In this document: one piece after another, positions 29,880 through 33,549 of the stretch
Layout of the letters: each line of letters starts with the position of its first letter
How positions within the stretch are numbered: position 1 is the stretch's first letter
NCBI GenBank assembly: GCA_027488855.1
Contig: JAIYAV010000092.1
Span: 1-33,549, forward strand
Source: Saprospiraceae bacterium
GTDB lineage: Bacteria > Bacteroidota > Bacteroidia > Chitinophagales > Saprospiraceae
Length of the DNA: 33,549 bases
Reading direction: 5' to 3'
Notes under the pieces: model-generated
What the model was told of the DNA's origin: nothing
The model's database searches: none
Seen by the model: only the letters and a program-made list of their open reading frames with translations
Program-made: the position numbers and the translations under genes

Positions 29880-32771
29880 ATGGCCTTGCAGACCTACCTC
29901 GACCATATCCGCACCCACATCCAAAAGGACGAACTCTCCGCCGCCCTCCAGCAATTGCGTGACCTGCTCGAAAACAGCCCCAAACTCGACGAGGTCATTC
30001 AACAAACTGGCCGTTTCGCCCACATCCGCAAGCAGATCCGCCTGGGAACTGTTCATTTCGAAGACGCAACCGTGACTAGGAACCAAATCAGTGCAGCTTT
30101 GCTGGAATTGCTCAGCGAGATTGAAAAGGAAGGGGTAAAACCGGAACTGGCTGGAGAAGTAGAAAAGGCAATATCAATAATTAACAGCAAAAATGTAGCC
30201 TCTGGCACTTTTTCAGCGGGCGGCGACATCAAAATTGGTGATACCATCACCCATGTCCACCATTACAGCGGAGTAGAAATTCCCCGCCTGCTCACTCCCC
30301 CACCCTTTCTGCCCGAAATCTTTCTCGGCAGAACGGACGACCTCCTCCACATTCACGATTTATTGTTTGCCCCCAATGGCAACCTGCTCCTGCTCGTAAA
30401 TGGCGAAGGCGGCGTAGGCAAAACCTCCATTGCTTCCAAATACTACCATACCTACCAGGAAGAATACGCCCACGTAGCCTGGGTGTTTAAAGAAAACAGC
30501 ATTGCCGATGCTCTCCTGCTCCTGGCCATGCCGCTGGGCGTAAGATTTGATGAAAAATGGGACAGCACGCAACGCCTCGAAGTACTGCTCCAGGCCATGG
30601 CCAACCTCAAAAAACCTTGTTTGTTGATCATCGACAATGCCAATGAGCTGGATGACCTGAGTGCCTATTTGCCCCAATTGCAGCGTTGCAGTAATTTTCA
30701 TGTCTTGCTCACTACCCGCATCAGCAAATACCGCCAAGCTGCTTTTTACAAAATCAATCCGCTCCCGCAAGACCTCGCCTTAAAAGCCTTCAAATCCCAT
30801 TACCTGGCCTTTGAGGCCGTTGAAGAAGCACTCTTTTTCGACATCTACGCGGCGGTGCAAGGCAATACCCTCGTATTGGAGTTGCTGGCCAAAAACCTCA
30901 ACCACTTCAACAACGAGCTAAAAAAACATTACCTACTGGCGGATTTAAACCGCGATTTGGAACAGAGTTTGTTGGGCTTGAGCAAAAGTACCAGCGTACA
31001 AACCATCTACCAGGGCTTGCGCGAAGAGACGCCCGAGTCCATCATCGCGGCCATGTACGACCTGGGTGCCTTACCCACTGAAGAAAGTAGCCTGCTTTCC
31101 GTCTTTGCGGTGCTGCCGGCCGAAAGTATCCCTTTTATGCGCCTGGAAACACTCTTGCCCGACCATGCCGATCTCGATACTCACTTGTTTGCACTGGCCC
31201 AAAAAGGTTGGATAGAATACAATGTTGCTGGAAAAGCTTTTAAATGTAGCCCGGTGGTGCAGGAAGTGGTGCGGATGAAACAAGTTGATCTATTGGAAAA
31301 TTGTAACTCCCTGATCAATGCCCTCTGCGAGCAATTGGATCGTGAAATTTTGCACCTCGACAATTACCAGCACTCGACTTTGTTTGTACGCTATGCCGAG
31401 GCTGTACTTGCTTCTTTTAAGGTTGCAGAAAATAATCTAGGAACTTTGTGCCAAAATATTGGAACGTTTTACAACGATACTGGCGATTTAAATAAAGCTT
31501 TGTCCATCTACCAAAAAATGGAGGCCATTCAAAACGAATTGCTCAATGCTCAACCAGAGAATACTAACTTCAAAAACGGCTTGGCAATTTCGTATGAAAA
31601 ACTCGGGAAAACCCACCGCGAACTGGGCAACCTGAGCCAGGCTTTGACTATCTTTGAAAGCGAGACAAAATTATTTGAGGAGTTGTACAGGGTTTCCCCA
31701 GAAAAAGTAAAATTCAAAAATGGCCTAGCTAGTTCGTATCAATACCTTGGAGATACTCACGGCCGTCTTGGAAATTTGAACTTGGCTTTGACCTTTTTTG
31801 GATTATCAAACAAGCTGGAAAAAGAATTATTTGAGGCTTATCCTCAAAATGTGGCTATCAAAAAAGGCTTGGCAATTTCTTACCAACACCTTGGAAATAC
31901 CCACCGCACTCTAGGCAATTTGCCACAGGCCTTGACTTTTTTTAAAGAAGAGACAAAACTATTTGAAGAACTGTACATGGTCTATACACAAAATATAAAA
32001 CTAAAAAATAGCTTAGCCATTTCTTATCAATACCTTGGAGATACCTACGGCCGTCTCGGAAATTTGAACTTGGCTTTGACTTTTTTTGAATTATCTAACG
32101 AGCTGGAAAAAGAATTATTCGTGGCTTATCCCCAAAATGTAGATTTCAAAAATGGCTTGGCGATTTCGTATCAACACCTTGGAAATACTAACCGCGCTCT
32201 GGGTAATTTGCAAAAGGCTTTGACTTTTTTTGAACAAACCAACGAGCTAGAAAAAGAACTCTACGCGGCTTATCCGCAAAATGTGTCCTTCAAAAACGCC
32301 TTGGCCATTTCGTATGAAAAACTCGGAGAAACCCACAGCGACTTGGGCAATTTGCAAAAGGCTTTGACTTTTTTTGAAAAAGCTATTGAAATATCGAAAG
32401 AACTGTACACGGCTTATCCGCAAAATGTGAAATTCAAAAACGGCTTGGCCATTTCGTATTCAAAACTCGGGCAAACCCACAGCGACCTGGACAATTTGCA
32501 ACAGGCTTTGACTTTTTTTGAAAACTACAACGCTTTAGAAAAAGAACTATACGCGGCCTATCCACAAAATGTGAAATTCAAAAACGGCTTGGCCGCTTCG
32601 TATGCTCAAATTGGTGCATTTTATCGAGATCAAAAAGAAGACCCAAATAAAGCAAAGGAAAATTTTCAACATTGCTACACACTCTGGAAGGAATTATCAG
32701 AGGCATATCCTGCCTATGTGGAATTTAGGAGGAATTTTGATTGGGCGAAAGAGGCGCTGGGAGAGGAATAA
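29880..32771 (+). CDS. NLR-like STAND NTPase: EAD11-like - P-loop NTPase - TPR array
   Basis: This 963-residue protein has no signal peptide or membrane segment. Residues 1-85 form a small helical domain (MALQTYLDHIRTHIQKDELS .. RKQIRLGTVHFEDATVTRNQ) that fits effector-associated domain 11, an adaptor of STAND conflict systems. A beta-type linker with AGGDIKIGDTI (about 113-123) leads to the NTPase: FLGRTDDLLHIHDLL, Walker A GEGGVGKTS (175-183), Walker B PCLLIIDNA (about 246-254), HVLLTTR (274-280). A winged-helix region follows (about 380-500), then TPRs from about 517 to 960, including eight 48-residue units beginning FKNGLAISY. Proteins of this build act as NLR-like sensors: the repeats detect a trigger, the NTPase oligomerises, and the EAD recruits an effector with a matching EAD. 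No such effector lies in the window. The trigger and any defence role are inferred. Confidence 0.87.
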   Translation: MALQTYLDHIRTHIQKDELSAALQQLRDLLENSPKLDEVIQQTGRFAHIRKQIRLGTVHFEDATVTRNQISAALLELLSEIEKEGVKPELAGEVEKAISIINSKNVASGTFSAGGDIKIGDTITHVHHYSGVEIPRLLTPPPFLPEIFLGRTDDLLHIHDLLFAPNGNLLLLVNGEGGVGKTSIASKYYHTYQEEYAHVAWVFKENSIADALLLLAMPLGVRFDEKWDSTQRLEVLLQAMANLKKPCLLIIDNANELDDLSAYLPQLQRCSNFHVLLTTRISKYRQAAFYKINPLPQDLALKAFKSHYLAFEAVEEALFFDIYAAVQGNTLVLELLAKNLNHFNNELKKHYLLADLNRDLEQSLLGLSKSTSVQTIYQGLREETPESIIAAMYDLGALPTEESSLLSVFAVLPAESIPFMRLETLLPDHADLDTHLFALAQKGWIEYNVAGKAFKCSPVVQEVVRMKQVDLLENCNSLINALCEQLDREILHLDNYQHSTLFVRYAEAVLASFKVAENNLGTLCQNIGTFYNDTGDLNKALSIYQKMEAIQNELLNAQPENTNFKNGLAISYEKLGKTHRELGNLSQALTIFESETKLFEELYRVSPEKVKFKNGLASSYQYLGDTHGRLGNLNLALTFFGLSNKLEKELFEAYPQNVAIKKGLAISYQHLGNTHRTLGNLPQALTFFKEETKLFEELYMVYTQNIKLKNSLAISYQYLGDTYGRLGNLNLALTFFELSNELEKELFVAYPQNVDFKNGLAISYQHLGNTNRALGNLQKALTFFEQTNELEKELYAAYPQNVSFKNALAISYEKLGETHSDLGNLQKALTFFEKAIEISKELYTAYPQNVKFKNGLAISYSKLGQTHSDLDNLQQALTFFENYNALEKELYAAYPQNVKFKNGLAASYAQIGAFYRDQKEDPNKAKENFQHCYTLWKELSEAYPAYVEFRRNFDWAKEALGEE
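31569..32720 (+). repeat. Eight 144-base tandem units encoding 48-residue TPRs
   Basis: Units start at about 31569 and every 144 bases after that (protein residues 564, 612, 660, 708, 756, 804, 852, 900), each coding for (F/I/L)K(N/K)xLAxSYxxLGxTxxxLGNLxxALTFF and a charged helix ending AYPQNV. At DNA level units 2 and 4 are closest: 31737-31853 and 32025-32141 agree at about 106 of 117 bases by eye, a 288-base period. Units 3 and 5 also pair. A two-unit block was therefore duplicated more recently than the rest. The last unit is divergent and ends the array. Confidence 0.88.
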
Positions 32772-32825: not shown

Positions 32826-33014
32826 GACCAGCGGCAGCGCCGCACAACGTCACTAGCCACAATGCCCGAATGTCCGGTAAAGGTGCAGCGCACCGAAACC
32901 CGCAATATTGAAACATTGGCAGAAATCAACGTGCGGCAATGTTCCGCTGCGCTGCAGCTCCAACCCAACTTATCACCTTGCCCCTAGTGACGTTTCGCGG
33001 CGCTGCCGCTGGTC
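32826..33014. repeat. GC-rich inverted repeat after the STAND gene
   Basis: The arms 32826-32856 (GACCAGCGGCAGCGCCGC, then AACGTCACTAG) and 32984-33014 are inverted copies with 2 mismatches in 31. The 127-base interior includes further related palindromic pieces (GTGCAGCGCAC; AACGTGCGG twice). A weaker outer pair (CCTGAAT near 32794 and ATTCAGG near 33024) suggests a longer original element of about 240 bp. It is much more GC-rich than its surroundings. Confidence 0.8.
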
Positions 33015-33099
33015 TTTGCGCATGATTCAGGGTTGCGTAGCAAGGGTAGGGCGCTTATTTGAATTCAACCATAAGCGGCATGATGGGAAAACGGACGAA

Positions 33100-33549
33100 A
33101 CGGATTGAACGGATTTAAACGGATTTTGGCTTTTGCCTTCGGCAACGCCTTCTTTGTTTTTTGTTAAATAACGTGAGTTTTGATTTTATTGATTTTTTTA
33201 CCGCAGAGTTTCGCAGAGTAAACCACAGAGTTTCTCAGAGTTTAATTGGTTTTTAGGAGTTTTACCACCTCTGGTGGCTGGAGGTCGAGTACGATTAAAA
33301 TCTGATTGTTAGCGCCATTTAGTGTTTATTCAATGCGCCTCTGAGTACGCTTAGCCACCAAAGGTGGCCTAAACTCTGAGAAACTCTGTGGTTTACTCTG
33401 CGAAACTCTGCGGTAAAAAATGTGGTGGATGAATAGCTTTTTTGTCAAAAAAATACGATAATTCATTGATATTCAATATGAATAAATCAAAACTCACGTT
33501 ACACTTGCCGCCGTAGGCGGAAAAATCCGTTTAAATCCGTTCAATCCGT
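33100..33549. repeat. Nested composite palindrome reaching the window edge
   Basis: Several inverted pairs are nested in order. Outermost is a 28-bp perfect pair of ACGGATT words (33100-33127 with 33522-33549). Next come a weaker TTGCC-GGC-rich pair, then TAACGTGAGTTTTGATTT (33169-33190 with 33481-33501, one-base gap) and the 51-bp perfect pair at 33194-33244 and 33370-33420. Inside are two small CCACC/GGTGG hairpins around a unique core. No open frame of note lies inside. The element probably continues to the right, because the left side has more ACGG words outside position 33100. Confidence 0.9.
33194..33420. repeat. Perfect 51-bp inverted repeat within the composite palindrome
   Basis: The arms 33194-33244 and 33370-33420 are identical inverted copies, with a 125-base loop. 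Each arm is itself two near-identical ~23-base direct units (ACCGCAGAGTTTCGCAGAGT and ACCACAGAGTTTCTCAGAGT, two differences). The lack of any mismatch in 51 bp implies a recent origin, or active maintenance by gene conversion or copying. Confidence 0.95.

Follow-up and report, generated by a model that had tools for sequence, protein, structure and literature searches.

Palindromes located within other palindromes are not without precedent. In the accessible part of one study, REP dimers are inserted within longer palindromes, and REPs ending in GTAG lie next to RAYT genes (PMC3733652). Template switching has been described as a process that both creates and keeps hairpins, in the case of RNA genes as far as the available text of that source goes (PMC8794818). 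The structure considered here lies at the end of a bacterial contig. The window, by which we mean the whole stretch of 33,549 nucleotides analysed, is the entire contig C158 (1-33549) of an 8.37-Mb genome in 422 contigs. This genome is referred to as G000, and G001, G002 and G004 are congeneric sister genomes. At the contig end (33100-33549) there are three arm pairs, all nested round one loop, and each of them, the perfect 51-bp arms included, was found as an earlier sequence-only reading had written it. We consider it likely that the nest is the result of one insertion of a MITE-like non-autonomous palindrome, here named BC, into the loop of an older palindrome, here named A. The features are:

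33073..33549, + strand, outer element A, left half and inner part of the right half (43 paired copies aligned, solo copies)
33100..33127, + strand, inner part of the left A arm, 28 nt, 100% mirrored at 33522-33549
33128..33149, + strand, first loop hairpin of A (GGCTTTTGCCTTCGGCAACGCC), at the same position in plain A loops
33169..33501, + strand, inserted unit BC (333 bp), matched at 90% identity over its full length by G004 C259:32780-33107
33169..33186, + strand, left terminal inverted repeat of BC, 18 nt, 100% paired with 33484-33501
33194..33244, + strand, left C arm of CGCAGAG words, 51 nt, 100% paired with 33370-33420
33245..33369, + strand, C core, 125 nt, with two small hairpins (CCACC..GGTGG, GCCACC..GGTGGC; alignment of 15 copies)
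33370..33420, + strand, right C arm, perfect mirror of the left C arm (arm pairing)
33484..33501, + strand, right terminal inverted repeat of BC, pairs with 33169-33186
33508..33520, + strand, second loop hairpin of A (CCGCCGTAGGCGG), at the same position in plain A loops
33522..33549, + strand, inner part of the right A arm, truncated where the contig stops (arm pairing)

That two 51-bp arms should match perfectly within 227 bp is in our judgement far beyond chance. The sequence-only reading counted three or more inverted-repeat families. There are indeed three arm pairs, but the TAACGTGAG ends and the CGCAGAG arms recur elsewhere as one whole unit, so that the window holds two mobile units rather than three. 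The same reading took the structure to be cut by the window edge, and C158 does stop at 33549, within the outer arm of the multi-copy repeat A. At least five other contigs of the same genome (C300, C359, C216, C252 and C258) end within such elements, which fits assembly breakage at repeats. Just before A lies a second, unrelated palindrome (32826-33014) with 74-nt arms that are 73% complementary and a 41-nt loop; a relative of it is found in G001 (L156) between CTCACATGACGCAG and GTAATGTGAG ends. Upstream of both, 29880-32771 is occupied by a long ORF (963 aa) with near-identical repeated DNA units.

Element A is a dispersed palindrome of ACGGATT words. Its solo copies in the own genome are roughly 170 bp long and consist of AAAGCGACATGATGG ends, an arm of about 55 nt in which ACGGAT words are spaced 9-10 nt, a loop with two small hairpins and the mirrored arm. 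The alignment comprises 43 paired copies including that of the window (19 from G000, 13 from G002, 10 from G001 and one from G004). Seven further arms are unpaired: the fetched stretch of L205 was too short (its full copy is L260), L229 and L232 lie at contig ends, and L050, L052, L213 and L228 are unexplained or truncated. The window copy begins near 33073 and not at 33100. Since the solo copies have mirrored AAAGCGACATGATGG ends, the absent right-hand end, roughly TTYRTCCGTTTTCCCATCATGYCGCTTT, is predicted to lie beyond 33549. Triplets of the A word occur 29 times in the forward and 23 times in the reverse orientation in the own genome and 0 times in the reversed control; thus the arms are not single-copy, a possibility that the sequence-only reading had named together with an inverted contig end. 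Elsewhere, one triplet each was found in 4 of 118 other sampled genomes of the order.

The inserted unit BC (33169-33501) consists of TAACGTGAG ends and the CGCAGAG-word arms round the 125-nt core. Its G004 relative on C259 is similar over the full length, and the flanks of the two are unrelated. The ends TAACGTGAGTTTTGAWTT define a family with very different interiors: one type (B1) of about 252 bp has GGCAGC words, another (B2) of about 221 bp has GACTTCNNCGAAGTC words, and six two-ended elements bearing C, the window copy among them, are 307-333 bp long. The C arms and core are also found inside other ends, AACTCACATTACGCAG...CTGCGTAATGTGAGTT. The modules thus appear to be exchangeable, and in the window the B ends and C form one unit. 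Several traits of MITEs are seen in the family. There are terminal inverted repeats (18-nt perfect ends in the window copy, paired ends in the relatives), the elements are short (85-333 bp) and present at many sites in G000, G002 and G004, and target site duplications are found at the family level; the window copy itself gave 0 in every register tested. No convincing autonomous TAACGTGAG-ended parent with a transposase was found in 20 stretches of the own genome, 19 of G002 and 21 of G004, nor was a transposase-bearing relative seen at 12 RAYT loci, beside unpaired ends or in the 14 of 25 collection loci viewed (the other 11 are G004 records). Four of these 14 loci have the TAACGTGAG end as part of a recognisable element, namely L241 and L257 (both of the B1 type), L239, which is a short palindrome, and L242, which has other words inside; the remaining matches look like chance matches. 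L242 comes from another Saprospiraceae MAG and shows GCTGGCC words after the TAACGTGAG end. The element exceeds the fetched stretch and is possibly a further interior type. An identity as a known RNA was considered for these elements and rejected, the sole Rfam match being MIR2646 at 51.4 bits, far under the gathering score of 245.

Both A and BC are dispersed, BC has relatives with the same terminal inverted repeats, and it is present or missing at a matching site. The last of these is seen in G004 C309, which carries BC, and C315 of the own genome, which does not; the flanks are 88.7% and 90.9% identical, and a different composite containing A lies near the BC-free site of C315. In the best register, direct repeats of at least 4 nt flank 27 of 51 TAACGTGAG pairs, a set in which one orthologous locus is represented twice, as L066 and L119, some further copies are also orthologous, and at least two pairs, L104 (423 nt) and L123 (125 nt), are probably spurious. 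In 2000 permutations of the right flanks the mean was 2.4 and the maximum 7. In G002 a C element contains a B2 element that is flanked on either side by TTAGTTT. The gene upstream of the nest in the window has its best G002 match at 81%, and neither A nor BC is found behind the gene there; its place is taken by another palindrome between TTACCAG repeats. The gene has paralogues, so this comparison of the window locus is only probably orthologous.

Nesting is recurrent in these genomes. One origin of the structure offered by the sequence-only reading was that palindromes were inserted into the loops of older ones, and this is supported by BC standing whole elsewhere, by its absence at C315 and by other nesting orders. 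Among the 42 paired A copies besides the window, the loop is 28-63 nt long in 36 and 84-251 nt in six, and each of the six long loops holds another palindrome made of other words. The pairing procedure would miss most insertions that break an arm, so 6 of 42 is not proof of a loop preference. In G001 (L088), A lies inside another palindrome, which itself lies inside a C element with the right B end only; hence A can form the innermost layer of a nest and not just the outermost one. A different palindrome occupies the same place in a C element with the left B end only (L079, also G001). A nested A composite also lies in the interior of one sister-genome contig of 8,371,686 bases. Two narrower generalizations were dropped: L056 and L131 do not share one insertion site, the sites being about 22 nt apart, and the six inserts do not all lie between the loop hairpins, as L054, in which the insert seems to cut the second hairpin, is not a clear fit.

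One orthologous A locus, with orthology assigned by flank matches, can be followed through three species. It is 174 nt long and plain in G000, 363 nt and three-layered in G001, and 611 nt in G002. In G002 the additional layer carries perfect ends of 21 nt and is flanked on each side by ACCTTAGAC. This 9-nt repeat is a likely, not a certain, target duplication, because the host layer too consists of CCTTAG words. A strict centre-in-centre rule was rejected, as the extra layer sits in an arm of layer 3, off its centre. Stepwise growth from 174 through 363 to 611 nt is not claimed either: flank identities put G000 and G001 nearest to each other, and the plain version in G000 may accordingly represent a loss and not the starting state. 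The extra palindrome corresponds to L260:1094-1333 (G002 C1), with CTGTCGATTACCCACAAATCC ends and the likely 9-nt duplication in a CCTTAG-word arm; L228 of G004 has a related end.

The two arms of a copy resemble each other more than they do the same arm of other copies on average. Within copies, the arms differ by a mean distance of 0.119 in the 43 copies of A and of 0.090 in the 32 copies of C, and between copies on the same side the means are 0.187 and 0.165, respectively; none of 5000 permutations was as low as observed, also within genomes. The own other arm is closer than the nearest same-side arm in only 8 of the 43 A copies and 12 of the 32 C copies, so that the pattern is not general. 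Among the 15 C copies that were aligned, two-sided changes were counted in 16 of 62 pairs and 41 cells (7.5 and 14.6 in shuffles), with a pairing structure drawn from one alignment row, which favours a two-sided result. The small hairpins of the C core (helices 3 and 4) also have two-sided changes. An internal length variant is present in 16 of the 32 C copies and is common to both arms in nine, most of which are from one genome and may be related, and not in the other seven.

Changes in place are seen at the locus shared by G001 and G002, where nine of 152 predicted pairs are changed on both sides and all nine are still complementary (1.9 expected, hypergeometric P 3e-6); with pairs drawn from the other sequence there are eight of 124, seven of them complementary (1.2 expected). 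All but one of these nine pairs are in the A arms, and most of them form short runs of 2-3 bases. The interior is conserved, the arms are some 270-580 nt apart and the copies are fixed in place. With either pair set, two-sided changes number 0-1 in G000/G001, 6-7 in G000/G002, 1-2 in L057/L129, 5 in L084/L092 (2-4 complementary) and 0 in each of L065/L126, L066/L119 and L075/L124; L058/L120 and L101/L123 were left out of this comparison. Orthologous B elements staying in place decay mainly one-sidedly. It is plausible, not proven, that the arms have been shaped by occasional arm-to-arm copying together with ordinary decay.

The sequence-only reading pointed to RAYT transposases, a hint that applies to the inner words of B1 and B2 and, at the RAYT loci scanned, not to A and C. 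There are 13 matches to PF01797 in the own genome and 16 in G001, G002 and G004 together, and 28 of these 29 loci were scanned (the own-genome match on C366 was left out). The RAYT-2 orthologues (L032, L145 and L149) are flanked by B2 words and the RAYT-1 loci L031 and L143 by B1 words, and by eye the units of the REP arrays at RAYT-1 and RAYT-2 loci end in GTAG. The same repeat flanks the RAYT gene, as in REP/REPIN systems, for B1 and B2 and, at the 28 loci scanned, not for A and C. A third RAYT-1 orthologue in G001 (L142), with a protein 96% identical, has no B1 match in its 1.9-kb locus. Among the PF01797 matches of G002 there is no close RAYT-1 relative (the best is about 48%), and 12 of the 13 two-ended G002 elements have B2 words, the remaining one bearing C; a link between RAYT type and interior is suggestive only. 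RAYT proteins were rejected as movers of A or C, as no match to either element was found at the 28 scanned loci at E 0.001, with the caveat that ACGGAT occurs within CCCACGGATAAATCCGTGGG-type REP-like hairpins at L027, L137 and L138, all of one RAYT group. Beside RAYT-2 in G002 (L145) there is a right TAACGTGAG-type end with 4/20 mismatches, a single case and a hint only.

Across the phylum, CRCAGAGTTTCRCAGAG was found in 17 of 395 genomes, the own one included (reversed controls 0), and 15 of the 28 fetched loci other than the window have at least two words per strand within about 300 nt. L184, which comes from a different genus of the phylum, has arrays of CACAGAG, CAAAG and CACGAATT words strung together. 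We suggest, tentatively, that A and C might represent a class of palindromes built of arrays of 6-8-base words (ACGGATT, CACAGAG, CACAAATT) at about one helical turn. Such palindromes would be thinly scattered over the phylum and without a RAYT link here, would nest repeatedly, and would have their arms rewritten in place by template switching as a self-correcting unit. If this were true, the genus would document how template switching acts in nature between arms that are separated by hundreds of bases.

How the symmetry of the nest arose can be explained in several ways. The sequence-only reading held that random insertion of separate elements would not give symmetry. This is too strong, since a palindrome brings its own symmetry with it when it enters a loop, and for the window a single insertion is enough. 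The alternative it proposed, a fold-back copying process, here taken as template switching that built one palindrome onto another with no transposition of separate elements, could draw on the perfect 51-bp arms and on the arms changing together. We nevertheless find it very unlikely as the origin of the nest, as BC and A are each found whole and apart at many places, BC is present or missing at matching sites, the order of layers varies and there are target duplications in the TAACGTGAG family. While fold-back copying is not needed for the nesting, the co-change of the arms makes it a good candidate for keeping them alike. That the symmetry is an assembly artefact, an inverted contig end, would agree with the contig stopping exactly within a mirrored arm. 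It is scarcely credible given that the arms are multi-copy, that the right half of A has its own loop hairpin, unlike the left, and that layered palindromes of the same make-up, the nested A composite among them, are found inside the 8.37-Mb sister contig.

A third explanation accepts the insertion nests and ascribes the match of the arms to selection on pairing, either in an RNA or in a DNA hairpin that mobility would require. The two-sided changes in helices 3 and 4 of the C core speak for it, as does the mainly one-sided decay of the static orthologous B elements, which is expected if pairing matters for moving copies alone; it is also in line with the seven of 16 C length variants that differ between arms. 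Against it, the two-sided changes between G001 and G002 are mostly in 2-3-base runs in copies that are fixed in place, nine of the 16 length variants are common to both arms, though most are from one genome, and Rfam gives no known RNA, just a sub-threshold match. Selection on pairing is a serious rival that we rate as less likely than not. In the favoured scenario of a single insertion, BC (33169-33501) would have transposed into the loop of A (about 33073 to beyond 33549), presumably moved in trans by a transposase acting on the TAACGTGAG ends, and A would have been moved by a putative enzyme. Replication-linked template switching that copies one arm onto the other in place may then partly keep the long arms alike. 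The elements would be mainly selfish, and what the window holds is probably an intergenic insertion of this selfish kind, at which assemblies also break.

The significance for the window alone is modest. The wider material spans several species, allows the layers of insertion to be taken apart one by one, and includes an orthologous palindrome in which the two arms changed jointly in place. Two questions become testable with it: whether the loops of other palindromes are preferred targets of small mobile ones, and what share template switching and selection have in keeping long bacterial hairpins matched. A search of mainly non-subscription literature for these repeats by exact word found no paper on them, and in the literature searched we met no system that combines multiple layers with exchangeable cargo behind one end pair and with co-change of orthologous arms.

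Compared with described systems, the elements resemble bacterial MITEs, as presented in the accessible portion of PMC2229807, in being short, non-coding and dispersed, with terminal inverted repeats and target duplications in the family. They differ from them in that the interior is a long word-built palindrome that varies behind the same ends, and no parent was found in the scanned loci. As in the REPtron or TnpA-REP systems, judged from the portion of PMC6006769 at hand, RAYT-1 and RAYT-2 are flanked by the REP kinds found in B1 and B2, whereas A and C of the window are without a match at the 28 RAYT loci scanned. Multi-base two-sided changes with complementarity kept are shared with the template switching outlined in the available text of PMC8794818; here, however, the elements are dispersed and intergenic, with arms of about 50 nt that are hundreds of bases apart. 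The closest likeness in structure is to the palindromes within palindromes of PMC3733652, where GTAG REPs also lie by RAYT genes as they do for B1 and B2 here. No such RAYT association is seen for the A and C elements at the 28 loci scanned, and where the accessible part of that study deals with REP dimers in one palindrome of few species, the nests described here reach up to four layers and are built of several word families.
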